From the NCBI RefSeq assembly GCF_004923255.1, contig NZ_QYRT01000023.1, positions 1 through 58,865 on the forward strand: a stretch of 58,865 bases of DNA. The letters are read 5' to 3'. Of the stretch, positions 12,791 through 23,445 are shown in pieces. The translations under genes were made by a program, and so were the position numbers. Each line of letters starts with the position of its first letter. The first letter of the stretch is position 1. Source of the stretch: Subtercola vilae. GTDB lineage: Bacteria; Actinomycetota; Actinomycetes; Actinomycetales; Microbacteriaceae. A model generated the notes under the pieces. It did no database searches. It was given only the letters and a program-made list of their open reading frames with translations, and was not told the origin of the DNA.

Positions 12791-13594
12791 ATGACCTCTC
12801 GCGCTCAGACCACGCCCGAAACCGTCCGCATCACGGTACTCGGCGGTCCAACCGTTCTGATCGAGTACGGCGGGCTCCGCTTTCTGACCGACCCCACCTT
12901 CGACCCACCCCAGTCGTATCCGGGTGACTTCACCAAAACGACGGCGTCAACGCTGGCTCCGGATGCTCTCGGGCACATCGACGCAGTGCTGCTGTCACAC
13001 GATGAACACATCGACAACCTCGACCTGGCCGGCCTCGCGTTCCTGCCCCGGGTGCCGGTCACCCTCACCACTCCCTCCGCGGCGGAACGACTCGGCACCC
13101 CCTCATCCCCTCTCGGCGCGGACACCCCGACCTCCTCATCGGTGACGGCACAGGGATTGAGCCCGTGGCAGTCAGTCGAACTCCCGCGCCCCGCCGGCGG
13201 CACCGTCACGGTCACGGCCGCGCCCGCCCTGCACGGCCCTCCCGGAGCCGACCTGGTCGTCGGCGAGGTCACCGGCTTCCTCCTCGCCGGCGACGCCCTG
13301 CCCACCGTCTACATCAGCGGCGACAACGCCTCCCTCGACCTCGTGCGCGAAATCGCCCATCGCGCAGGGCCCATCGACACCGCCGTGCTCTTCGCCGGAG
13401 CCGTGCGCCGCCCGGTGCTCGAGGGCGCTCTCCTCACCCTCGACGCCGCCGATGCGGCAGAGGCGGCACAGATCCTGGATGCCCGCCGCATCGTTCTGGC
13501 GCACGTCGACGGCTGGGCGCACTTCACCGAAGGCACCGCAGCTACCATCGCCGCCTTCACCGCTGCCGGCCTCACCGACCGCCTGCAGCTCTAA
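12791..13594 (+). CDS. metallo-beta-lactamase-fold hydrolase, UlaG-like
   Basis: A 267-residue protein with the N-terminal strands VRITVLGGPTVLIEYGGLRFLTDPTFD typical of the UlaG-like branch (the FLTDP strand is a hallmark). The metal site normally HxHxDH reads SHDEHIDNLD (His70, His73, Asp75), a pattern shared with a group of uncharacterised actinobacterial homologues. Later segments TVTAAPALHGPP and TVYISGDNASL supply the other expected His and Asp ligands. It is probably a metal-dependent hydrolase of a small phosphoester, lactone or amide; the substrate is unknown. Its stop overlaps the convergent ABC ATPase stop at 13591. Confidence 0.8.
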   Translation: MTSRAQTTPETVRITVLGGPTVLIEYGGLRFLTDPTFDPPQSYPGDFTKTTASTLAPDALGHIDAVLLSHDEHIDNLDLAGLAFLPRVPVTLTTPSAAERLGTPSSPLGADTPTSSSVTAQGLSPWQSVELPRPAGGTVTVTAAPALHGPPGADLVVGEVTGFLLAGDALPTVYISGDNASLDLVREIAHRAGPIDTAVLFAGAVRRPVLEGALLTLDAADAAEAAQILDARRIVLAHVDGWAHFTEGTAATIAAFTAAGLTDRLQL

Positions 13595-15369
13595 CCGCGG
13601 AATCCACTCGGCGAAGTTTGTGGGTGACGGCCGCTCACACCCGCAAACTTCGCCGACTCGATTCTGAGGTGGGGAGGTAGGGAGGGAGGGAGGGAGCGGG
13701 CGCGACCGGGGATGGCGTCGAGGAGCGCACGAGTGTAGGGGCTCTGCGGTGAGGTGAACACGTCAGCCGTCACGCCGTGCTCGACTACGGCGCCGCGATT
13801 GAGCACGGCGACCCGGTGGGCGATCTGCGCCACCACGGCGAGGTCGTGCGAAATGAAGAGGTAGCTCACGCCCAGCTCGTTCTGCAGCGAGGCGAGCAGG
13901 GTCAGAATCTGCTCCTGCACCGAGACGTCGAGCGCCGAGACGGGCTCGTCGAGAAACACGAGGTCGGGTTTCACCGAGAGCGCCCGAGCAATGGCGACGC
14001 GCTGCCTCTGCCCGCCCGAGAGTTCGGCGGGTCGCCGATCGGCGAACGCCGCCGGCAGTGCAACCTGGTCGAGCAGCTCCCGCAGCCGGGCCCGCCGCGA
14101 GACCCGGTCGCCGATGCCGAACGAGACCAGCGGCTCGATGATCGACTGGCCCACCGTGAATTTCGGATCGAGCGACGAGTACGGGTTCTGATGCACCAGC
14201 TGAAAGCGCTGCCGCAGGGGCCGCAGCTCGCTCCAGCGAGTGTCGGTGATGTCGGTGCCGTCGAACAGCACTCGGCCGGCAGTGGGCTTCTCGAGGCCGA
14301 GCGCCACCCGCAGCGTGGTGGTCTTGCCCGAACCCGACTCCCCCACCAGAGCGAGGGTCTGGCCCGTCGGCACGTCGAGCGTCACAGAGTCGATCGCCCG
14401 AAACGTGCGCTCCCCGTCGGGCGAGCGCGGCAGCCGGTAGTCCTTCGAGACGCCCACGATCGACAGGATCGGCGCCCGCGAGGCAGCAGCTTCCAATGGC
14501 ACGGCAGCCCCCCGCCGCGCAGCAGACCCGACCGGCGCAGCACTCCCTGCCGCGTGCCGAACCTTCACCCGCCCATCCGGCGACAACCCCGGCGCCGCAG
14601 CGATCAGCCGCCGCGTGTACTCCTTAGCCGGCGACACCAGAATGTCGGCGGGCCGCCCCTGCTCCACCACCCGCCCGCCCTGCATGACGAGCACCCGGTC
14701 GGCCCGGTCGGCCGCCACCCCGAGGTCGTGCGTGATGATCAGCAGAGAGATTCCCCGGGAGGCCACCAGCGACGCGAGGTGGTCGAGAATGCGCTTCTGC
14801 ACGGTCACATCGAGGGCGCTGGTGGGCTCGTCGGCCACGATGAGCTGCGGATGCCCCGCGAGCGCACTGGCGATCAGCACCCGCTGGCGCATCCCGCCTG
14901 ACAGCTCGTGCGGATACTGCCTGGCCCGCAGCACCACGTTGTCGAGCCCCGCCGCCTCGAGCGCTTCGAGCACCTCGGCGTTCACCGACCGTTTGGGCAC
15001 GCCGCCGCGCCGCCGCACCGCCTCGGCGACCTGCGGCCCGACCCGCAGCGTGGGGTTCAGCGCCACCATCGGGTCTTGCGGCACCAGCCCGATCACGCGG
15101 CCCCGGATGCCCCGCAGCACCCTTTGCGACGCACGAGTGGTGTCGACGCCACCCACGCGGATCGTGCCGCCCGTCACCCGCCCGCCCGCCGCAAGCAGCC
15201 CGAGCAGGGCGTTCGCTGTGGTGCTCTTGCCCGAACCCGACTCCCCCACGATCGCCACCGTCTCACCGGGGGCGATGCGAAGCGACAGGTCGGTGACGGC
15301 GGCAGAGCTCCGCCCCTCGCGGCTGTACGTCACCGAGAGAGAGGTGATCTCAACAAGGGGGGTGGTCAT
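13591..15369 (-). CDS. double ATP-binding subunit of a peptide/nickel-type ABC importer
   Basis: A 592-residue protein with two complete nucleotide-binding domains (a DppD-DppF-like fusion). Domain 1 has Walker A GESGSGKST, signature LSGGMRQR and Walker B VADEPTSALD; domain 2 has GESGSGKTT, LSGGQRQR and FLDEPVSALD. It powers the importer formed by the two permeases and the binding lipoprotein just upstream. The ATG at 15369 has GAGGAG upstream and overlaps the permease stop by 4 bp. The natural end appears to lie soon after ALLDAIPG; beyond it the frame continues through a GGGA tetranucleotide run (Pro/Ser/Leu-rich) and the palindromic repeat at 13600-13664, which supplies about the last 22 residues. 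Confidence 0.93.
   Translation of the reverse strand: MTTPLVEITSLSVTYSREGRSSAAVTDLSLRIAPGETVAIVGESGSGKSTTANALLGLLAAGGRVTGGTIRVGGVDTTRASQRVLRGIRGRVIGLVPQDPMVALNPTLRVGPQVAEAVRRRGGVPKRSVNAEVLEALEAAGLDNVVLRARQYPHELSGGMRQRVLIASALAGHPQLIVADEPTSALDVTVQKRILDHLASLVASRGISLLIITHDLGVAADRADRVLVMQGGRVVEQGRPADILVSPAKEYTRRLIAAAPGLSPDGRVKVRHAAGSAAPVGSAARRGAAVPLEAAASRAPILSIVGVSKDYRLPRSPDGERTFRAIDSVTLDVPTGQTLALVGESGSGKTTTLRVALGLEKPTAGRVLFDGTDITDTRWSELRPLRQRFQLVHQNPYSSLDPKFTVGQSIIEPLVSFGIGDRVSRRARLRELLDQVALPAAFADRRPAELSGGQRQRVAIARALSVKPDLVFLDEPVSALDVSVQEQILTLLASLQNELGVSYLFISHDLAVVAQIAHRVAVLNRGAVVEHGVTADVFTSPQSPYTRALLDAIPGRARSLPPSLPPHLRIESAKFAGVSGRHPQTSPSGFRG
13600..13664. repeat. palindromic intergenic repeat, copy 2
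   Basis: TCGGCGAAGTTTGTGGGTG at 13608-13626 pairs with CACCCGCAAACTTCGCCGA at 13638-13656, 19 bp with one G-U type mismatch, around an 11-nt loop; GAATC and GATTC flank it as outer inverted ends. The core and loop length match the copy at 48-98. Here it overlaps the 3' end of the minus-strand ATPase gene and sits between two convergent genes. Confidence 0.85.
13680..13700 (+). repeat. GGGA tetranucleotide run, potential G-quadruplex
   Basis: Four GGG tracts spaced by single A bases (13680-13694) and a fifth GGG at 13698-13700 meet the simple G-quadruplex pattern on the plus strand. The run lies in the tail of the ABC ATPase gene, where it encodes a Pro/Ser/Leu-rich segment on the minus strand. 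A change in copy number would shift only the last part of that protein. Confidence 0.6.
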
Positions 15370-16340
15370 CGTTGCAGCTCCTCGAGCGATTTCGAAATGT
15401 GGTTGAGACTGAACACGACGAGGCCGACGAACAGGCCCGGCAGCAGGCTCAACCACGGTGAAGTGATGAGAAAGTTGCGACCGTTCGAGATGAGCGTGCC
15501 CCACTCCGCTGCCGGTGGCGCGGCACCGAAACCGAGAAAGCTGAGCGCGGAGATGGCGAGAATGGCGACCCCGAAGTCGAGCACCGCGAGCACGAAGACC
15601 GGGCCCCAGGAGTTCGGCAGGATGTGCCGCAACAGTACGCGCGCCCACGACGCTCCGCCGGTGCGCGCGGCCTCGATGTAGGGCAGGTTCTTCACCTTCA
15701 GCACCTCGGCCCGGGTGATGCGGGCAAAGCCCGGAATGATGCCCACGGCGACGGCGATCGAGATGGGAACGGTGCCGAACCCGAGGGCCGTCACGATCAC
15801 GAGCGCGAGCAGCAGGCGCGGAATGGCGAGCATCACGTCGACCAGCCGCATCAGAACCAGGTCGACCCAGCCGCCCAGAAACCCGGTGACGACGCCGAGC
15901 GCGAGGCCCACCACGACCGCGATGGCCACGGCGGCCAGCGTCGCCTGAATGGTGAGCGTCGAGCCGTAGAGCACCCGGGTGAACAGGTCGCGGCCGATCT
16001 CGTCGGTGCCGAACAGGTGGCTGAGGCTCGGCGCCTTCAGCTTGTCGGCGGGAGCTGTGGCGTACGGGTCGAAGTGCGTGAAGAGCGCCGGGAATGCCGC
16101 CGACACGATGACGAACAGCAAGAGCAGAATCGCAACAACCAACCCCGGGCGGCGGAGCACGCGGCGGGCGGCGTACTGCAGCCGCTCACGGCGTGCGTTC
16201 TGAAGGGGCGGGCGCCGGTCATCCTGCTCGCGGTTCTCGCCCGATTCGCCCAGGTCACCCGGTCGGCCCCGGTGCGCGGGCGGGAATGTCTCGAGCTCGG
16301 CCTGCTCGAGGCTGGAGCTCAGTGCGGTGTCGATCGCCAT
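15366..16340 (-). CDS. ABC importer permease, DppC type
   Basis: A 324-residue inner-membrane protein with an unusually long polar N-tail (about 60 residues rich in Glu, Arg and Gln) before the first helix RRPGLVVAILLLLF. It contains LFGTDEIGRDLFTRVLYG, the signature of the DppC/OppC group, and the ATPase-docking EAA loop YIEAARTGGASWARVLLRHILPN. About six membrane helices are visible. It pairs with the permease at 16365 and with the ATPase that overlaps its stop. The ATG is at 16340, 24 bp behind the previous stop. Confidence 0.93.
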   Translation of the reverse strand: MAIDTALSSSLEQAELETFPPAHRGRPGDLGESGENREQDDRRPPLQNARRERLQYAARRVLRRPGLVVAILLLLFVIVSAAFPALFTHFDPYATAPADKLKAPSLSHLFGTDEIGRDLFTRVLYGSTLTIQATLAAVAIAVVVGLALGVVTGFLGGWVDLVLMRLVDVMLAIPRLLLALVIVTALGFGTVPISIAVAVGIIPGFARITRAEVLKVKNLPYIEAARTGGASWARVLLRHILPNSWGPVFVLAVLDFGVAILAISALSFLGFGAAPPAAEWGTLISNGRNFLITSPWLSLLPGLFVGLVVFSLNHISKSLEELQR

Positions 16341-16364: not shown

Positions 16365-17324
16365 TCAGATCACGCTGTGACCGCGCACGATGCGCGGGTC
16401 GAGCAATGGATAGATGAGGTCGATGATGAGGTTGATACTCACGAACAGGGCCGCCGCGATGACGACGATCGCCTGCACCACCGGCACGTCTTGCTGCAGC
16501 ACCGACTCCTGGGCGAGTTTGCCGATGCCGTTGCGGGTGAAGATCGTCTCGGCCACCACCGCCTCCGCGAGCGCCGACCCGAGCAGCAGACCGAGCAGGG
16601 TGAGGGCCGGCAGCGCCGCGTTTCGGAAGGCATGCCGCCACTGGATGCCCGAACGAGAGAGCCCCTTCGCCCGCGCCGTCACCACGTACGGTTCGTCGAG
16701 CGCATCTTCGAGGCTGCGCGTCAGCACCTGCGCCAGCAGGGCTGCCGTGGGAATCGCCATCATCACCGCCGGAAGCACCACCGAGGCCGCACCACTGTCG
16801 CCGCTCGCAGGAAACCACTTCAGCTGAAACGCGAAGACCTGAATCAGCAGCAGCCCCACGAAGAACGGCGGCAGTGACACCCCGATGGCGGGCAGCCGGG
16901 AGAGCACGGTGCGCAGCCACCCCACCTTCGCGAACACCGCGAGCGAGGCCGTGCCCACGCCGAGCACGATGGTCAGCAGAACGGCCGAGGCCCCCAGCAC
17001 CAGCGTCGACGGCAGCCGTTGGGCCAACAGCTGCGCCACCGGAACGTTCTTCGTGATCGACTCACCGAAGTTGCCCCGCACGAACTCGAACAGTTGGTTG
17101 ACGTACTGCAGGTACACCGGCTGGTCGACGCCGTACTGGTGTTTCAGCGCGGCCAGCTGGTCGGGCGAGATCTGAGTGACATCGATGTTGCCCGCCGCCA
17201 GCAGCAGCTGCACCGGGTCGCTGGGCAGCAGGTAGAGCACAACGAAGGTGACCGTGTACGCCGCCCACAGTACGAGCACCGCCTGCAGAACCCGGCCTGA
17301 GATGTATCGAGCGAACACGGTCAC
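16365..17324 (-). CDS. ABC importer permease, DppB type
   Basis: A 319-residue permease starting at a GTG with GGAAGG upstream. The N-terminus YISGRVLQAVLVLWAAYTVTF with LPSDPVQ, the GNFGESI segment and the cytoplasmic EAA loop YVVTARAKGLSRSGIQWRHA identify the DppB/OppB group. About six helices are present, ending LLDPRIVRGH, the usual C-terminus. It forms the heterodimeric pore with the DppC-type partner. It starts 6 bp after the binding-protein stop, so the genes are co-transcribed. Confidence 0.93.
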   Translation of the reverse strand: MTVFARYISGRVLQAVLVLWAAYTVTFVVLYLLPSDPVQLLLAAGNIDVTQISPDQLAALKHQYGVDQPVYLQYVNQLFEFVRGNFGESITKNVPVAQLLAQRLPSTLVLGASAVLLTIVLGVGTASLAVFAKVGWLRTVLSRLPAIGVSLPPFFVGLLLIQVFAFQLKWFPASGDSGAASVVLPAVMMAIPTAALLAQVLTRSLEDALDEPYVVTARAKGLSRSGIQWRHAFRNAALPALTLLGLLLGSALAEAVVAETIFTRNGIGKLAQESVLQQDVPVVQAIVVIAAALFVSINLIIDLIYPLLDPRIVRGHSVI

Positions 17325-17330
17325 CCTTCC

Positions 17331-18986
17331 TTACTGCTCGAGCCAGATGTCGTTCGCGCGGAGGAAGGCCTCCGACGTGAACGCGAATCCGTGCACTGTG
17401 TTCGAGACCCCGGCGATCTGAACCCGCTCGAAGATCGGGAACGCAGAACCCGTCGAGATGAGCTTCGACTGGAGGGCGGCGTACGCCGTACCCCTGGCCG
17501 TGTCATCCGGTGTCTCGAGACCCGTGGCGAAAAGCTCGCTGATACTCGCCCCCGTTGCAGCGTCTTGGCTGTTCACGGCCGACGCCTGCTTCGAACTCGA
17601 CTGGTCGAGCGACGAACCGAGCACACTCGGGTCGGCGCGGGTCAGGTAGGTTCCCGTCAGGTCGTAGTCGCCCGCGGCGAGCTTCTGCGTGTTCTGCGCC
17701 GCCGTCACCACATCGAGCGAGAGGTTGATGCCCACCTGCTTCAGCTGGTCTTGCAGCAACTGCTCGCCCGCGCCGCTGACCGTGAGCGGGTAGTGCAGGG
17801 TCAGCTCCTGGCCGGCCTTGTAGCGGTAGCCGTCGGCGCCCACGGCCCAGCCGGCGGTGTCGAGCAGCTTCTTCGCGCCGTCGGGGTCGTAGGCCAGCAG
17901 CTTCGACTCGTCGGTGGCGAACGGCGTCGTCGAGTCGACCACGCTCGTCACGACCGGGTAGTCGGCCCAGAAGATCGTCGACGCGTAGGTTGTTCGATCG
18001 ATCGACTTCTGCAGCGCATTCCGCACGTCCGCGTCGGCGAGCGGCCCACCCTTCGTCACATTCGGCACAAGGATGCTCGAGATACCGGGCAGCGCACGAG
18101 ACTCGATCACGTCGCCGGCGGCCGTGATCACCTGCTGGTCGGCGTCGCTGATGGGCTGGCGTGGCCACGCCACGTCGATCGTTCCCGCGGTGAGCTCACC
18201 GTTTCGAACGCTGTCTTCTTTGATGTACGTGACGTCGATCGCGTCGAGGTAGGCGGCGCCCTGGTTCGTCACCAGGCCCGACGGCCAGGCGTAGTCGGCC
18301 CGCTTCGTCAGGTGCGCCGACTTCGCGGCGGTGTAGTTGTCGAGCGTGAACGCGCCCGACCCGACGACGGCCCCGGCGCAGCGCGCCTCGGGGGTCTGCT
18401 GGTAGGTCGCCGGCGCCTCGATGGCGAGAGTGGTCGTCGAAGTCGCCTGCAGGAACGCCGCGTTCGGCTTCGTGAAGTCGACCTGCACGTGGGTGGGGTC
18501 GACGACCGTCGTCGAGCCGTAGCCAGCGAGGTAGGTCAGCCCCAGAATCGACTTCGGGCCGAGCGCGAAAGTGCCGTCGAGGGCTGTCTTCACCGCGGTG
18601 GCGTCGAACTTCTCGCCGTCGCTGAACGTCACGCCGTCGCGCAGGGTGAAGGTGTACTGGGTCGAATCGGCGTTGATGCTCCACGCCGTCGCCAGCCACG
18701 GCACAATCTTTCCGCTGTCGGGGTCTTGGTCGGTCAGCGAGTCGGCGATCTGGCGGTCAATCGAGCGCGACTCGATCCAGTACACCTGGTTCGGATCGAT
18801 GCAGCCCTGCTGGTCATCCCAGAACGCCACCTTCAGGGTGCCGCCCGAAACGGGGGTCGCGGAGTCGGTACTCGCGCCCGGGGTTCCGGATGCCGCACCG
18901 GCGCAGCCCGTCACGACCAGCGCCAGGGCGGCGGCGGCCCCTGCAAGAGCGGCGGCTCGGTGCCGAAAGTGTCTGTGGTTCGTCAT
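17331..18986 (-). CDS. family 5 extracellular solute-binding lipoprotein
   Basis: A 551-residue secreted lipoprotein. The signal sequence is positively charged (NHRHFRHR), then hydrophobic, with lipobox VTGC and acylated Cys28. The mature protein follows the SBP_bac_5 pattern: GGTLKVAFWDDQQGCIDPNQ, then YTFTLRDGVTFSDGEKFDA, the domain that binds oligopeptides, nickel, opines or sulfur compounds such as glutathione. It delivers ligand to the Dpp-type permeases encoded next. Because the operon begins with two oxygenases of desulfurisation type, the ligand may be an organosulfur compound rather than a peptide (inference). A 72-bp gap separates it from the upstream gene. Confidence 0.92.
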   Translation of the reverse strand: MTNHRHFRHRAAALAGAAAALALVVTGCAGAASGTPGASTDSATPVSGGTLKVAFWDDQQGCIDPNQVYWIESRSIDRQIADSLTDQDPDSGKIVPWLATAWSINADSTQYTFTLRDGVTFSDGEKFDATAVKTALDGTFALGPKSILGLTYLAGYGSTTVVDPTHVQVDFTKPNAAFLQATSTTTLAIEAPATYQQTPEARCAGAVVGSGAFTLDNYTAAKSAHLTKRADYAWPSGLVTNQGAAYLDAIDVTYIKEDSVRNGELTAGTIDVAWPRQPISDADQQVITAAGDVIESRALPGISSILVPNVTKGGPLADADVRNALQKSIDRTTYASTIFWADYPVVTSVVDSTTPFATDESKLLAYDPDGAKKLLDTAGWAVGADGYRYKAGQELTLHYPLTVSGAGEQLLQDQLKQVGINLSLDVVTAAQNTQKLAAGDYDLTGTYLTRADPSVLGSSLDQSSSKQASAVNSQDAATGASISELFATGLETPDDTARGTAYAALQSKLISTGSAFPIFERVQIAGVSNTVHGFAFTSEAFLRANDIWLEQ

Positions 18987-19058: not shown

Positions 19059-20390
19059 TCAGCGATCAGCGGCGTACGTCGCCAGCACCCGTCGCCCCGC
19101 GATGAGCAGCGCCGCATCGTCTTGCGGCGGGTGCACGCGCGACGACAGCACGTCACGCAGGTGGCGTTCGAGCGGGTTGTGCCGGGTGAGCCCCGGGTTG
19201 CCGATGGCGGCGACCGCGGCCTCGACCGCGGCGATCGCCGAACGGGTCGCGATGAGCTTCGCCACAAGGGCCCGTTCACTGGCCTGCTGATCGCCCTCAT
19301 CGATGCGCCGGGCGAGCCCGAACAGCACCTCCTCGGCCTGAACCAGCTGCGTCTCGATCTCGCCCGCGACACTCTGGATGCGCTCGGTGGTGGCAATCGG
19401 CCGGCCGAGAGAGGTGGGGATGCGCTCGGACGCGAACTTCGTGAAGAACTCCTGCGCGGCACGGGCCACACCGACGTAGAGCGCGCTCACCGCGAGACCG
19501 CTCGCGCCTCCCGCCCCCGCCCCCGCCTCAGGCGACAGTTTCGACTTCGGCGTGCCCCGAAAATTCTCGAACGGAATGTGCACATCGGTGTAGATCACGT
19601 CATGCGTGCTGGTCGCCCGCTGGCCGAGGTGATCCCAGGTTCGAACGATCTCGACACCCCGCGCGGTACCGGGCACGATGGCGTGCGCGAGCAGCGGGTC
19701 GTCGTCTTCGGTCGCGACCCAGACCAGGTGGTACGCCAGACCCTCGGAGCCCGTCGCGAACCCCTTGTGTCCATTGATCACCCAGCCCGATTCGGTGCGG
19801 CGAATCTTGGTGGCCGGAATGCCGCCGCGCGCCGGCGCACCCCACTCGGGTTCGGCCCGGATGGCGTTCAGCAGCACAGCGTTGGTCGCCGAATCAGCGA
19901 CCACTTTCTCGTAGAGCTCCTCGGGCCACCACGGCGCCGCCGCTTGGTGCACGTGCTGAAAGATGGTCATCGCGGCGATCAGCGCCACCGACGGATCGCC
20001 CTTGCCGAGCGCCTCGAACAGGCGAACCAGGTCGGTGCTCGACGGCGGGTCTCCGCCATACCGCGCGGCCACGCCGACGGTCAGCAGCCCCGCTTCGTGC
20101 AGAACCCGAATGCCGTCCCAGGGGAACTCGGCCGAACGGTCGTACTTTTCGGCGGTCAGCGCGAGCCGCGCCGTCACCGCGGCGAGTGCCGCATCAGAGA
20201 GGTCGGCGACAGGCAGGCGGAAGGCGGGCGGGTGAAAGGTGGGCGGGCAGTCGCCAGGCCCTACCTCGCCGGGCCTGGCCTCGCCGGGCCTGGCCTCGCC
20301 GGGCCTGGCCTCGCCGGGCCTGGCCTCGCCGGGCCTGACCTCGCCAGCCCGGCCGACAGCATCCACTCGCTGCACGATGGTGTCGGTCAT
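19059..20390 (-). CDS. acyl-CoA dehydrogenase-fold flavin monooxygenase (SfnB/DszC-like)
   Basis: A 443-residue protein of the acyl-CoA dehydrogenase superfamily. Visible are the helical N-domain FPWDGIRVLHEAGLLTVGVAARYGG, the mid beta domain with SGWVINGHKGFATGSEG and WDHLGQRATSTHDV, and the C-terminal helical bundle with VAGEIETQLVQAEEVLF. The lack of an obvious catalytic Glu and the link to an SsuD-like gene point to the SfnB/DszC group, which uses reduced flavin to oxygenate sulfur compounds. The N-terminus has a five-fold ARPGE-type repeat encoded by a 15-bp minisatellite, absent from normal members. The ATG at 20390 overlaps the previous stop by 4 bp. Confidence 0.85.
   Translation of the reverse strand: MTDTIVQRVDAVGRAGEVRPGEARPGEARPGEARPGEARPGEVGPGDCPPTFHPPAFRLPVADLSDAALAAVTARLALTAEKYDRSAEFPWDGIRVLHEAGLLTVGVAARYGGDPPSSTDLVRLFEALGKGDPSVALIAAMTIFQHVHQAAAPWWPEELYEKVVADSATNAVLLNAIRAEPEWGAPARGGIPATKIRRTESGWVINGHKGFATGSEGLAYHLVWVATEDDDPLLAHAIVPGTARGVEIVRTWDHLGQRATSTHDVIYTDVHIPFENFRGTPKSKLSPEAGAGAGGASGLAVSALYVGVARAAQEFFTKFASERIPTSLGRPIATTERIQSVAGEIETQLVQAEEVLFGLARRIDEGDQQASERALVAKLIATRSAIAAVEAAVAAIGNPGLTRHNPLERHLRDVLSSRVHPPQDDAALLIAGRRVLATYAADR
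20264..20338. repeat. 15-bp minisatellite, five units, in a coding region
   Basis: Five adjacent 15-bp units of CCTCGCCGGGCCTGG run from 20264 to 20338, the last with one change (GA for GG at its end), and a degenerate sixth follows. On the minus strand they encode repeats of ARPGE. The unit is a multiple of three, so gain or loss of copies keeps the frame. It is a plain tandem repeat without spacers, not CRISPR. Confidence 0.95.
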
Positions 20391-21550
20391 GCCGAGACCC
20401 GGCCGATGCTGTTCTCGGCGTAGGCGCCGAGGTGCTCGGCCTGCAGCAAGCCCTTCTGACCGGTGCGTTCACGGTGCGCGAGCTCTTCACGCACCAGCGG
20501 AATGACGTACCGGCCGTAGTCGACGGCGTCGTTGAAGTTGTCGTAGCCCCTGATCGAGATGAGGTCGGCGCCGAGGTCGACGTAGTCGAGAATCGCGGCC
20601 GCCACCGTCTCGGGTGTTCCGACCAGGGCAGTGGATGCCCCCGCCGCCCCCGTGGCGGTTGCCGTCGGGGTCCACAGGGCACGGTCGTGCAGGTCGCCGC
20701 CAGCCGCGATGTCGAGCAGGCGCTGCGAGCCCACGTTCGCCGGGGCCTGGCCGTTGTTCTTGCGCTGGCGCCAGAGCGTCGCGGCCCCTGAGCGCTCCTG
20801 CAGGGTCGACAGAACGTGGTGCGCCTTCTCCCACGCCAGCTCCTCGGTGGGGGCGATGATGGGCCGAAACGTCACCCACGTGCGAGGCGTGTCACTGCGG
20901 CCGGCGAGACGGGACTGGGCAGCGACGCGGTCGATCTGCTCCTGCGTCTCTTTCAGCGGCTCGCCCCAGAGACCGAAGATGTCGCCGAGCGCGCCGCCCA
21001 CCCGGTACGCGTCGTCTGACGAGCCGCCCACCGAGATGGGAATCGTGCCATTCGTCGGCCGCACCACCGAGACGAAGTCTTCGAACGAGTAGTAGGTGCC
21101 CGTGTGGCTGAACGGTTCGGTGTTCGCCCACACCTTTCGGAGAATCTGGATGTACTCCTCCTGCCGCGCGTACCGTTCGACCTTGTTCAGGCGGTCGCCC
21201 TCCCTGGCCTGCTCGGCGTCGCTGCCGCCCGCAATGAAGTGCACCACCGCTCGGCCGCCCGACAGCTGATCGAGTGTGGCGAGGGCCTTCGCGGCCACCG
21301 TCGGGTAGATCGTGTTCGGCCGCAGCGCCACGATGGGCTTCAACTTCTCGGTGTGCTGCGTGACGGCCGCGGCGATGATGAACGGGTCGTGCCCCGGCGA
21401 GCCGTAGGGCACCAGTGTGTAGTCGAAACCGCCGTCTTCGAGAACGCGGGCGTAGCGCTTCAGATACGACGGGTCGAGCGTCGGGTCGGCGAGCCCGTTC
21501 AGTTCGTTCGAACGGTTGACGTTGATGGCACTGATGAATTCGACGGTCAT
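20387..21550 (-). CDS. SsuD-like FMN-dependent alkanesulfonate monooxygenase
   Basis: A 387-residue luciferase-fold monooxygenase. It matches the SsuD group in VALRPNTIYPTVAAKALATLD, the GGRAVVHFIAGGSDAEQAREGD segment, the RYARQEEYIQILRKVW helix and the C-terminal block DLGADLISIRGYDN. SsuD uses FMNH2 and oxygen to split alkanesulfonates into aldehyde and sulfite, giving sulfur for cysteine synthesis. The ATG at 21550 has an AAGGAG ribosome site 7 bases upstream. It is the first structural gene of a six-gene operon (two oxygenases and a Dpp-type importer) and is preceded by a small Cys-containing leader peptide. No flavin reductase gene is in the operon. Confidence 0.9.
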   Translation of the reverse strand: MTVEFISAINVNRSNELNGLADPTLDPSYLKRYARVLEDGGFDYTLVPYGSPGHDPFIIAAAVTQHTEKLKPIVALRPNTIYPTVAAKALATLDQLSGGRAVVHFIAGGSDAEQAREGDRLNKVERYARQEEYIQILRKVWANTEPFSHTGTYYSFEDFVSVVRPTNGTIPISVGGSSDDAYRVGGALGDIFGLWGEPLKETQEQIDRVAAQSRLAGRSDTPRTWVTFRPIIAPTEELAWEKAHHVLSTLQERSGAATLWRQRKNNGQAPANVGSQRLLDIAAGGDLHDRALWTPTATATGAAGASTALVGTPETVAAAILDYVDLGADLISIRGYDNFNDAVDYGRYVIPLVREELAHRERTGQKGLLQAEHLGAYAENSIGRVSA

Positions 21551-21715
21551 GGTGAGACTCCTTGACGAGGTGAATGAGCGAATCAGGAGGGGTGGGAGGT
21601 GTGGGAGGTGCGCGAATCAGAGCAGGCGGGCGCCACGGAATGAACAGCCGGCGGGAAGACCGCGCTCAGACGAGAGAGGTTACGGGCAGCGTGCGCTGCG
21701 CTGGAGAAAGAGAAC
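21551..21715 (-). promoter_or_regulatory. transcribed leader between Cys leader peptide and SsuD-like gene
   Basis: This 165-nt stretch would be mRNA between the small leader peptide and the SsuD-like start. On the minus strand it holds a C-rich segment (21585-21610) with CCUCCU at 21585-21590 and two more CCUCC motifs. CUCCU is complementary to the AGGAG of the SsuD-like ribosome site at 21558-21563, 22 nt away, so a hairpin could hide that site. A C-rich, poorly structured RNA would also suit Rho loading. No intrinsic terminator with a U tract is seen. Confidence 0.45.
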
Positions 21716-21835
21716 TCAGCGGGTGCGACAGAGACATCGGGCGTTGACCGCCCGTGCATCGGCTACCGCAGGCATTCGACCGAACCCAGCCGCCGTCGAC
21801 AACGCGGCAGTGCGGTTGTCGATACGAGCGGTCAT
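21716..21835 (-). CDS. putative Cys-containing leader peptide (39 aa) of the organosulfur operon
   Basis: A 39-residue reading frame starting ATG at 21835, preceded by a purine-rich AGAGAGA about 8 bases away. It begins MTARIDNRTAAL and ends NARCLCRTR then TGA, with two cysteine codons (TGT) at residues 34 and 36 among arginines. Short actinobacterial leader peptides with Cys/Arg-rich ends occur upstream of sulfur-assimilation operons, and mycobacterial polycysteine leaders are known to work as cysteine-responsive attenuators. The position 165 nt before an SsuD-like operon fits that role. Only two Cys codons are present and they are not adjacent, so the sensing role is a hypothesis. Confidence 0.6.
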   Translation of the reverse strand: MTARIDNRTAALSTAAGFGRMPAVADARAVNARCLCRTR

Positions 21836-22016
21836 GGTCGATGTCTCTCTGTGAGGGGCCAGTGGGCTGTGCGGTGATGTCGAATCTAGCGGGCTGCCGG
21901 GGCCCATGGGGCCGCGTGACAGGTTGTGTCGGTGTGTGTCTGGTTGTGTTGGCGCAACTGTTGACCGGGCCGAAATCTGCGTGAAACCCGGGCGTCGTAC
22001 GGTGGAACCACCAGCG

Positions 22017-22036
22017 AGTGAACCAATCAGTTCACT
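22017..22036. promoter_or_regulatory. perfect inverted repeat before the NtaA-type gene
   Basis: AGTGAAC at 22017-22023 and GTTCACT at 22030-22036 form a perfect 7-bp inverted repeat with a 6-bp spacer, ending 35 bp before the GTG at 22072. This is a good size and place for a dimeric repressor or activator of the monooxygenase gene, perhaps shared with the divergent operon. No regulator gene is adjacent. Confidence 0.5.
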
Positions 22037-22071
22037 TTCGAATCGCTTGCCGTTCACCGAAGGAGCCCCTC

Positions 22072-23445
22072 GTGCCACAACCCCTCATGCTCGGCATGTT
22101 CCAGAGCCTCGGACTCGGCGGCCAGTGGCGTCTGCCCGGCAATACCTCGGTCGACTTTCTGAACCTCGACCACTGGGTCACCATGGCCAAACGCCTCGAC
22201 GAGGCGGGTATCGACTTTCTCTTCTTCGCCGACGACTATGCCTACCCCATACTGAACGGCGCGGTGATCGACACCGCCATTGAGAAAGCCATCCAGTTTC
22301 CGCGCGCAGACCCGCTGGTCATCCTCTCGGCCCTCGCCCTCGCCACCACGAACCTGGGGCTCGTCGCCACGTCGTCGACCACCATCGAGCGCCCGCAGTC
22401 ACTCGCCCGCCGATTCGCCACACTCGACCACCTCACCCAGGGCCGCTTCGGTTGGAATGTCGTGACCGGCGCCGGCCAGAACTCGTCGGCCAAGCTCTTC
22501 GGCGACACGATGCTGCCGCACGCCGAGCGCTACGCGATCGCCGAAGACCACCTGAACCTGTCGCTGAAGCTGTGGGAGGGCTCGTGGCAAGACGACGCCC
22601 TGCAGGTCGACCGCGTGAACGGCGTGTACGCCGACGCGTCAAAAGTGCACGAGATCGAGCACAACGGCCCCTACTTCTCGGCCCACGGCATGCTCACCGT
22701 GCCGCCCTCTCCGCAGCGAACACCACTGCTTTTTCAGGCCGGCACCTCGTCGACGGGGCGCGAGCTCGCCGCCACGTATGCCGAGGCCGTGTTTCTTGCC
22801 AGCGAGCCCGAGCTCGTGAAAGCCCAGATTGCAGATGTCCGGGCTCGCGCAGCCGCCCACGGCCGCGGCCCTGACGCCATCAAGTTCTTGGTCGCCGGTT
22901 CGTTCATCGTGGCCGAGACCGAAGCCGAGGCGCACGCGCTCCGCGACACCATGGTCGGTTTCGGCACCCTCGAAACCGCCGCGGCCGCCTACGCCTTCTT
23001 CACCGGGCTCGACCTGCTCTCAATGGATCTCGACAAGCCGCTCGCCACCGTCAAGACCGAGCAGGGTCGCACGAACGTCGAACGGTTCTCTGGCGAGAAC
23101 GGCGCACCCGCGCCGACTGTTCGCGAGATTCTCGAAGAGTTCCGCAGCAACGGCGTCATGGGCCGGCCGTTCATCGGTACGCCCGAGCAGGCCGTCGACC
23201 AGGCGCAGCTGCTGATCGAGCAGACGGGCGCCGACGGTTTTCTCGTTCAGCCCGACCCCACGGGAACGCACGACGACTTCATCGACATGGTGGTTCCCGT
23301 GCTGCGCGAACGAGGGCTGATGAACACCGACCACGCGGGCAGCACGCTCAGGGAGAGGCTGTTCGGGGTCGGGCACCGTCGACTGCCGGCTGAGCATCCG
23401 GGGGCCGCGTTTCGCGTGCCGAGCGGGCCCTCAGTCGACAGTTAG
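22072..23445 (+). CDS. NtaA/DszA-family FMN-dependent monooxygenase
   Basis: A 457-residue luciferase-like monooxygenase of the nitrilotriacetate/dibenzothiophene-sulfone group. It has the conserved pattern AGIDFLFFADDYAY near residue 45, ALATTNLGLVATSSTT, RFATLDHLTQGRFGWNVVTG, and the C-terminal VDQAQLLIEQTGADGFLVQPDP. The GTG at 22072 is preferred because GAAGGAG lies 8 bases before it; an in-frame start at 22018 falls inside the inverted repeat. It is divergent from the SsuD-like operon, so both may be expressed in the same sulfur-limited state. It needs reduced FMN from an unlinked reductase. Confidence 0.9.
   Translation: MPQPLMLGMFQSLGLGGQWRLPGNTSVDFLNLDHWVTMAKRLDEAGIDFLFFADDYAYPILNGAVIDTAIEKAIQFPRADPLVILSALALATTNLGLVATSSTTIERPQSLARRFATLDHLTQGRFGWNVVTGAGQNSSAKLFGDTMLPHAERYAIAEDHLNLSLKLWEGSWQDDALQVDRVNGVYADASKVHEIEHNGPYFSAHGMLTVPPSPQRTPLLFQAGTSSTGRELAATYAEAVFLASEPELVKAQIADVRARAAAHGRGPDAIKFLVAGSFIVAETEAEAHALRDTMVGFGTLETAAAAYAFFTGLDLLSMDLDKPLATVKTEQGRTNVERFSGENGAPAPTVREILEEFRSNGVMGRPFIGTPEQAVDQAQLLIEQTGADGFLVQPDPTGTHDDFIDMVVPVLRERGLMNTDHAGSTLRERLFGVGHRRLPAEHPGAAFRVPSGPSVDS

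Follow-up and report, generated by a model that had tools for sequence, protein, structure and literature searches.

The tnaC/tna system of Escherichia coli is a case of Rho-dependent attenuation in which tryptophan is sensed via the nascent chain while the ribosome stays on the stop codon. Cysteine-responsive attenuators of mycobacteria, which consist of polycysteine, leaderless short open reading frames (ORFs), were reportedly described by Canestrari and colleagues in 2020. In the accessible parts of the published accounts, a ribosome halted on a leaderless Cys-rich ORF of mycobacteria frees the next ribosome-binding site (PMC13236596, PMC9031893), and the speed of the ribosome on Cys codons is the signal in the known Cys leaders (PMC1262725, PMC13236596, PMC9094748, PMC9031893). 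Candidate cys leader peptides have been placed before cys operons of Mycobacterium and P. acnes and before cbs of B. longum by Seliverstov et al. 2005 (PMC1262725), who name tnaC/tna as an analogy in the available portion of the paper, and a further leader, MetL, precedes metNIQ in Streptomyces lividans (PMC8079986). A literature search, which had most subscription papers outside its reach, found no Cys leader before an organosulfur operon; the principle of a cysteine-codon leader is known, the CxC/UGU version looks new and the organosulfur target may be new.

The locus considered here lies in the window, by which is meant the whole stretch of DNA that was analysed (58,865 bases, contig C20 of the 4.04-Mb genome G000). 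The ORF list gives a leader ORF of 39 codons at 21716..21835 on the minus strand, at a position which is kept in the orthologous loci of relatives, and the translation of 21835..21716 is MTARIDNRTAALSTAAGFGRMPAVADARAVNARCLCRTR*. This confirms the sequence-only reading, which had reported a 39-residue frame ending NARCLCRTR* without giving a strand: the stop lies 165 nt ahead of the ATG at 21550 of a monooxygenase gene, and all parts, leader ORF and operon alike, are on the minus strand. The Cys codons are codons 34 and 36 of 39, in the stretch UGU CUC UGU (21728..21736), both being UGU, the rarer codon by count. Twelve residues ahead of the first Cys codon stands CGA AUG (Arg-Met, 21773..21778), a spacing which, by eye, is that of the first copies in the Rathayibacter group. 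Also by eye, AGAGAGA (21844..21850) is a candidate ribosome-binding site of the leader ORF, and TAGATT (21883..21888), about 47 nt before the leader ATG, is a possible -10 element without a recognisable -35; a promoter scan of the window's leader region returned no promoters.

Behind the leader, the minus strand carries an SsuD-like FMN-dependent (luciferase-like) monooxygenase as operon gene 1 (20387..21550), an SfnB/acyl-CoA-dehydrogenase-like flavoprotein (19059..20390), a TIGR04028-like family 5 ABC solute-binding protein that scores below the cut-off (17331..18986), two ABC permeases (16365..17324 and 15366..16340) and an ABC transporter ATPase with two ABC domains (13591..15648). The best solved relatives of the monooxygenase, which lies below the equivalog cut-offs, are alkanesulfonate monooxygenases, and its closest orthologs, 85% identical, come from Subtercola metagenome genomes, so that G000 is taken to belong to a Subtercola-like member of Microbacteriaceae. 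None of the first three operon genes scores above an NCBIfam cut-off, and the organosulfur role is one assigned by homology only. The SfnB-like and solute-binding genes are both found near the monooxygenase in 27/35 loci; in the Rhodococcus locus the partner genes are absent within the 3 kb examined. The SfnB-like protein opens with a repeated PGEAR tract (about 20250-20345), and because of these N-terminal repeats its true start may be farther downstream. G000 has 34 matches to luciferase-like monooxygenases, and a scan of 30 of these genes found a credible Cys leader only at the window monooxygenase; four further Cys-ORF matches were rejected because, as judged by eye, they fall within upstream coding sequence or at its end.

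The leader shares with the mycobacterial attenuators a short ORF which has Cys codons near its stop and comes first in a sulfur-related operon (here so described by homology), and most relatives of the window leader start at a promoter-like box and are, like them, probably leaderless. It differs from them in that the Microbacteriaceae have CxC with UGU inside a conserved hairpin instead of contiguous Cys, in its SsuD/SfnB-like organosulfur target, in that folding, a limited guide by itself, gives no sign of a ribosome-site mechanism, and in that the window copy lacks a recognisable promoter at its start and has the SD-like AGAGAGA instead. The window leader is therefore not placed in the mycobacterial class, since contiguous Cys codons are absent and a leaderless start is only a candidate. 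A short leader ORF, the lack of an intrinsic terminator and a Rho-type region after the stop are shared with tnaC/tna, and sensing of tryptophan by the nascent chain, with the ribosome on the stop codon, sets that system apart. As far as the accessible text goes, the leaders of PMC1262725 likewise have Cys codons near the stop, no terminator found (the scan here covered the window only) and a pyrimidine-rich stretch before the operon, with Rho suggested; their Cys runs are matched by relatives of the window leader, which itself has CxC, and the families, the operon and the hairpin made by the Cys codons are different here. MetL is, in the available part of its description, leaderless and without a typical Rho-independent terminator, and its ending GARCMCRRMCAF resembles NARCLCRTR by eye; it differs in that its authors point to Met and Thr codons and name it metL, and in the operon that it precedes (PMC8079986).

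The evidence for a conserved leader comes chiefly from orthologous loci. ORFs ending in C.?C within seven residues of the stop were sought in the 300 nt upstream of 68 orthologs of the monooxygenase (281 nt for L075). Matches were found in 17/68 loci, made up of 15/41 actinobacterial loci and 2/27 proteobacterial loci, the latter being taken as chance. The Cys-ended short ORF is present in 11/11 Microbacteriaceae, 2/2 Cellulomonas, 1/2 Kineosporia and the single Rhodococcus MAG (1/1), and in the same 300-nt scan it is absent from the Frankia group (0/16), Aeromicrobium (0/3) and six others (0/6). The operon thus does not need the leader, because these 25/41 actinobacterial orthologs are without such an ORF. 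When the scan was extended to 450 nt in the 26 actinobacterial loci without a match, the sole gain was a weak one, an ORF in Protofrankia that lies 339 nt upstream. Per-locus shuffle rates are mostly 0-6% and at most 11%, and the same pattern is matched in 2/138 control upstream regions of leader-bearing loci, the controls, like the Cys-codon background used below, being drawn from long frames in all six frames of those loci, with spurious frames included. When these 300 nt of the window locus are dinucleotide-shuffled, such an ORF arises in 2% of 1000 cases, so that the window ORF alone is only mildly unusual and the strength of the case comes from the orthologs. The sequence-only reading had proposed that the peptide be checked for conservation against a background of unconserved sequence, and the outcome is largely in its favour: the Cys-ended ORF recurs at the same place in several clades while the DNA around the window leader gives no alignment even to three other Subtercola copies, but most actinobacterial orthologs lack the ORF.

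Two wider surveys were made. In the Rathayibacter-group genus the gene is present in 12/15 genomes (E<=1e-150) at 14 loci, and the leader in 14/14, although only 5 of these loci are new and the rest repeat loci already in the ortholog set. Among 396 genomes of the order the gene occurs in six, namely the window genome, G432, G335, G389, G413 and G315; the leader accompanies it in G432 (AARLCCCR*), G335 and G389, and is absent in G413 and G315. Three of the six, G335, G413 and G315, seem to repeat loci already counted, those of K. babensis, K. rhizophila and Quadrisphaera. One further leader was found in Subtercola G009. The distance from leader to monooxygenase in leader-bearing loci is about 88-210 nt, the gaps for L140, L141 and L148 being a few nt smaller than the distance to the match start; in the second copies L088 and L113 the likely gene start is 88 nt after the leader stop. 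In Kineosporia rhizophila (L108, L147) the leader start and promoter-like box are kept and the ORF stops before the Cys codons of K. babensis, which reads as a natural loss of the Cys codons. More distant homologs (about 52% identity) gave two matches in 13 loci, both of which look like chance and were set aside. The ending VRGC[ST]CP was also rejected as a sign of reuse elsewhere: 16/199 family genomes match vs about 15 for the reversed-pattern control, and a leader is involved only at three Rathayibacter-group loci. Upstream of the ortholog in Actinacidiphila (L083), at 188 nt, there is a different Cys-containing short ORF ending TQCRVVDFCRTGSSVCRSH, without an NCBIfam match, which we take to be of a Streptomyces-like type.

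Plain protein similarity of the 39-residue peptide gave noise only (best foreign E 0.038 in 60 genomes) and is uninformative for so short a sequence; the window peptide matched no NCBIfam or Pfam family, an NCBIfam search of six leader peptides gave no relevant match, and Rfam 15 had no matches in the window; in four loci searched with it, the one match, which scored under the gathering threshold, lay in another part of L056.

What is common to all of the leader families is a group of 2-5 Cys codons, mostly UGU, directly before the stop. Within the last ten codons of 24 leaders, 55/61 Cys codons are UGU; after collapse to 14 lineages the share is 31/36 (86%) vs 139/670 (21%) in long frames; 17 genes of the window have 6 UGU vs 21 UGC. 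The form of the cluster varies, CxC being found in the window and the other Microbacteriaceae and CCC or CCCC in Cellulomonas, Kineosporia and G432. The view of the sequence-only reading that two non-adjacent Cys codons make a different variant therefore stands for the Microbacteriaceae but is qualified by the contiguous codons at the same place in the other three. In the Rathayibacter group pN/pS of the peptide body is 1.15 (12 leaders, 66 pairs), amino-acid-changing and silent sites evolving at about the same rate, so that the rest of the peptide appears free to vary. Since the Cys codons are constant, the rarer codon is preferred and the peptide body is free, the speed of the ribosome on the Cys codons is the likely signal. 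It has also to be considered whether the peptide itself acts, be it as a CxC peptide of metal- or redox-binding type or through ribosome arrest, with a small molecule sensed in the tunnel. The conservation of CxC and of the ending VRGCSCP within the Rathayibacter group would suit such a peptide, but between families the endings differ (VRPCCCR, GCCCRC, YCLCSQ, RCLCRTR) and only the Cys codons before the stop are in common, which makes an acting peptide very improbable.

A second recurrent feature is the dicodon CGA AUG (Arg-Met), which by eye is present in 17/18 aligned leaders and missing in RYN_59. The first Cys follows it by 12 residues in 13/18 rows, the window included, by 11 in two second copies and by fewer in the other Subtercola. 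Met is frequent in the leaders, at 43/837 residues in 18 leaders by raw count, and CGA AUG lies just 5' of the 5' foot of the hairpin described below.

A TAnnnT box stands 6-7 nt ahead of the leader ATG in Cellulomonas, G432 and the other Microbacteriaceae, and this box is itself 19 nt after GTTGGAC. Because the ATG lies so close to the promoter-like box, the transcript, and with it the leader ORF, is probably leaderless in these groups. In two Kineosporia the ATG comes 7 nt after a TAGAGT box, without GTTGGAC; the Rhodococcus leader has neither GTTGGAC nor a TAnnnT box at that spacing, and the G000 leader does not match the conserved promoter pattern. A search for GTTGGAC-N19-TAnnnT-N6/7-ATG, with no Cys criterion, in 22 genomes chosen to include known holders of the gene found 18 places, 15 of them before the monooxygenase gene, and the reversed control gave one. 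All 15 matches before the gene (15/15) open a frame of 32-57 codons that ends in a Cys cluster.

The reading that best accounts for these patterns is that the organosulfur operon is governed by a ribosome-mediated attenuator responsive to cysteine, with the leader ORF as its sensor; this is considered probable, with appreciable room for doubt. Translation of the leader would report the supply of Cys-tRNA through the rare UGU codons just before the stop. When cysteine is ample, the ribosome would reach the stop and leave, and the operon would be kept low; when cysteine is short, the ribosome would halt on UGU, the state of the RNA would change and the operon would be expressed. In the other Microbacteriaceae the halted ribosome would keep the Cys-codon hairpin open. 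The last and least certain step would be Rho-dependent termination in the C-rich stretch after the ORF. Cysteine as the signal, the halting of the ribosome there and the sign of the response are the parts that we infer. The function of the window copy, which has two Cys codons only, no conserved promoter and no strong hairpin, is less certain than that of the leader family.

In the other Microbacteriaceae the Cys codons (GUUCCUGUCCG) pair, by eye, with GGRCRGGARC across a loop of 13-22 nt, with an inner stem in most. Over 18 sequences, 91% of the cells of the outer helix and 96% of those of the inner helix are paired, and the whole structure is 92.6% paired vs at most 64% when slid. Of 500 shuffles, 7 reach the observed paired fraction, 8 the both-side changes, 33 the covariation score and 205 the pair types. 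Covariation of the hairpin is weak, the three both-side changes all coming from the window row, which is doubtfully aligned there, and RNAalifold, which recovers this ten-pair helix, assigns it a small covariation term. Folding energies of the segment are unusual in some loci (z to -4.9) and near z 0 in others. Within the ten columns of the 5' arm (14 rows), three of the four variable columns (50, 52, 56) are A/G facing U at amino-acid-changing first or second positions, the third positions 48, 51 and 54 are fixed, and column 57 varies in G236, where two pairs are broken; the 3' strand is nearly invariant, third positions included. This pattern looks like selection on the RNA rather than on the peptide, even if it leans on related sequences. 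It raises the alternative that the ORF is not a sensor, that the conserved element is the RNA hairpin only (for example a protein-binding or pausing element) and that the reading frame is incidental. Such an account would explain the near-invariant 3' strand and a pN/pS of about 1 over the ORF, but Cellulomonas, Kineosporia, G432 and Rhodococcus keep the Cys codons before the stop at the same place without the hairpin sequence, and the 15/15 promoter-defined frames are open and end in a Cys cluster despite their varied lengths, so that it is distinctly unlikely. A tentative extension, which is held to be unlikely and is offered as such, is that the Microbacteriaceae have a distinct class of attenuator with a hairpin built within the leader ORF; the rare UGU Cys codons would supply the 3' strand of this hairpin, and the conserved Arg-Met (CGA AUG) would stand at its 5' foot. 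A single RNA could then respond to both sulfur amino acids, since a ribosome halted at Met would leave the hairpin closed and one halted at Cys would keep it open. The operon so gated would serve organosulfur scavenging, in bacteria among which the genus of the window, at least, seems to be without sulfate reduction.

No intrinsic terminator (a G+C-rich stem followed by a U-run), the element that marks a classical attenuator, was found in 21500-22100 of the window. The post-leader RNA (21551..21715, minus strand) is C-rich and G-poor (C 0.44, G 0.20) and by composition is a candidate Rho-loading region. Mean C/G after the leader is 0.44/0.25 in 20 leader loci, 0.37/0.35 in 163 controls and 0.42/0.31 in 24 no-leader orthologs, and the best C-over-G stretch is 0.12-0.37 in the 20 leader loci vs a mean of 0.13 in the 163 control regions. 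The excess of C over G moderately favours Rho, and the suggestion in the sequence-only reading that the RNA is C-rich enough for Rho is compatible with it, but the no-leader orthologs are also fairly C-rich (0.22). The Rho step would need an extra link, because the C-rich region lies beyond what a ribosome halted on the Cys codons would itself cover. Blocking the Cys codons in the folding hardly alters how open the post-leader RNA is (largest change 0.07 over 24 loci), and a third-strand competitor was not found beyond shuffles in 15 loci (mean z 0.05).

The other candidate for the last step is translational attenuation in the manner of the mycobacteria, in which RNA structure would cover the monooxygenase ribosome-binding site until a ribosome stalls on the Cys codons and exposes it; it differs from the preferred reading in the last step. 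Precedents exist, in the accessible parts of the reports, for leaderless Cys-rich ORFs (PMC13236596, PMC9031893), and the window has a local hairpin over the site (21558..21590, minus strand), in which CCUCCU (21585-21590) faces AAGGAG (21558-21563). The CCUCCU noted earlier is thus present, with a spacing of 21 nt by eye and not 22, and centroid and MFE folds alike show the 8-bp hairpin, at a distance of over 120 nt from the Cys codons. In L054, again by eye, the motif GGAUGUUCC is fully complementary to GGAACAUCC, which lies at the ribosome site; pairings of the Cys motif with the ribosome site that were seen by eye in single loci were not confirmed by folding. The earlier proposal that masking of AAGGAG is the regulated step finds no support in the window, where the opening cost is 6.1 kcal/mol free and 6.0-6.4 kcal/mol blocked. 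A modelled ribosome on the Cys region of 15 other loci changes the cost by -1.5 (K. babensis) to +3.7 kcal/mol with no common direction, so that over the 16 loci it does not as a rule cut the opening cost and the largest drop is 1.5 kcal/mol. Furthermore, the local hairpins pair within about 40 nt of the gene, beyond the reach of that ribosome, and opening costs only 1.8-5 kcal/mol in many loci. Translational attenuation is accordingly considered unlikely, and Rho-dependent termination fits somewhat better than the uncovering of a downstream ribosome-binding site.

Whether the attenuator proposed for the relatives also operates in the window is a separate matter. The folding of the window leader predicts a stem-loop GCACGGGCG-GUCAA-CGCCCGAUGU (21734..21757, minus strand), the 3' strand of which takes in the first Cys codon; it is weak (segment z -0.5) and is possibly a shifted, weaker counterpart of the conserved Microbacteriaceae hairpin. 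The window ORF could instead be a chance ORF or a decaying remnant of a leader that is real in the relatives, a view which is compatible with the preferred explanation for those relatives. The window keeps neither the promoter nor the hairpin nor the flanks of the relatives, the shuffle rate is 2%, and two-mismatch matches to the motif are not unusual across the whole window (3 found vs 1.8 expected). Against a remnant stand the strand, the 165-nt gap, the CxC ending, the use of UGU and the Arg-Met-x12-Cys-x-Cys spacing, all of which are as in the relatives, together with the candidate ribosome-binding site before the window ORF. The remnant view is held to be improbable, about as much so as the mycobacteria-style step considered above. 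By eye, ACAGAGAGACAUCG (21839-21852, minus strand), just 5' of the leader start, could pair almost throughout with the Cys-codon stretch GAUGUCUCUGU (21728-21739).

A PAPS/APS-reductase domain was found in none of the nine members of the window's genus that were searched (the window genome included; two less than 90% complete), and because no such domain was found, control of organosulfur scavenging by cysteine supply would make physiological sense. G000 has one sulfite/nitrite-reductase domain, in a frame of 882 residues that looks NirB-like. If correct, the attenuator proposed here would carry ribosome-based cysteine sensing beyond the cysteine genes of mycobacteria, to an operon predicted to take up organosulfur compounds in Microbacteriaceae, Cellulomonas and Kineosporia, and in its two-Cys form the constraint would be carried by codon choice (UGU) and RNA pairing. 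For annotation, it suggests attention to short promoter-adjacent ORFs ending in CxC or CCC.

Some minor features of these regions may be recorded. A divergent NtaA/DmoA-like gene on the plus strand uses the same intergenic region as the operon; its called start is GTG 22018, and GTG 22072, which follows AAGGAG, is by eye the likelier start. The inverted repeat GTGAACTGATTGGTTCAC (22018-22035), in the intergenic region common to both divergent monooxygenase genes, has the look of an operator. The Rathayibacter loci have other palindromes 5' of the leader promoter, which by eye are CGATCGG...CCGATCG and CCAACGAT...ATCGTTGG. Finally, the tetranucleotide CTGA is enriched after the leader in 20 loci (38 vs 11.5 expected, z 8.7), with 3 copies in 21551-21715 of the window; the corresponding counts are 22 vs 14.7 (z 2.0) in no-leader orthologs and 112 vs 93 (z 2.0) in control regions. 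The copies recur about 23 nt apart in Rathayibacter and Cellulomonas, and part of the enrichment may stem from tandem duplications.
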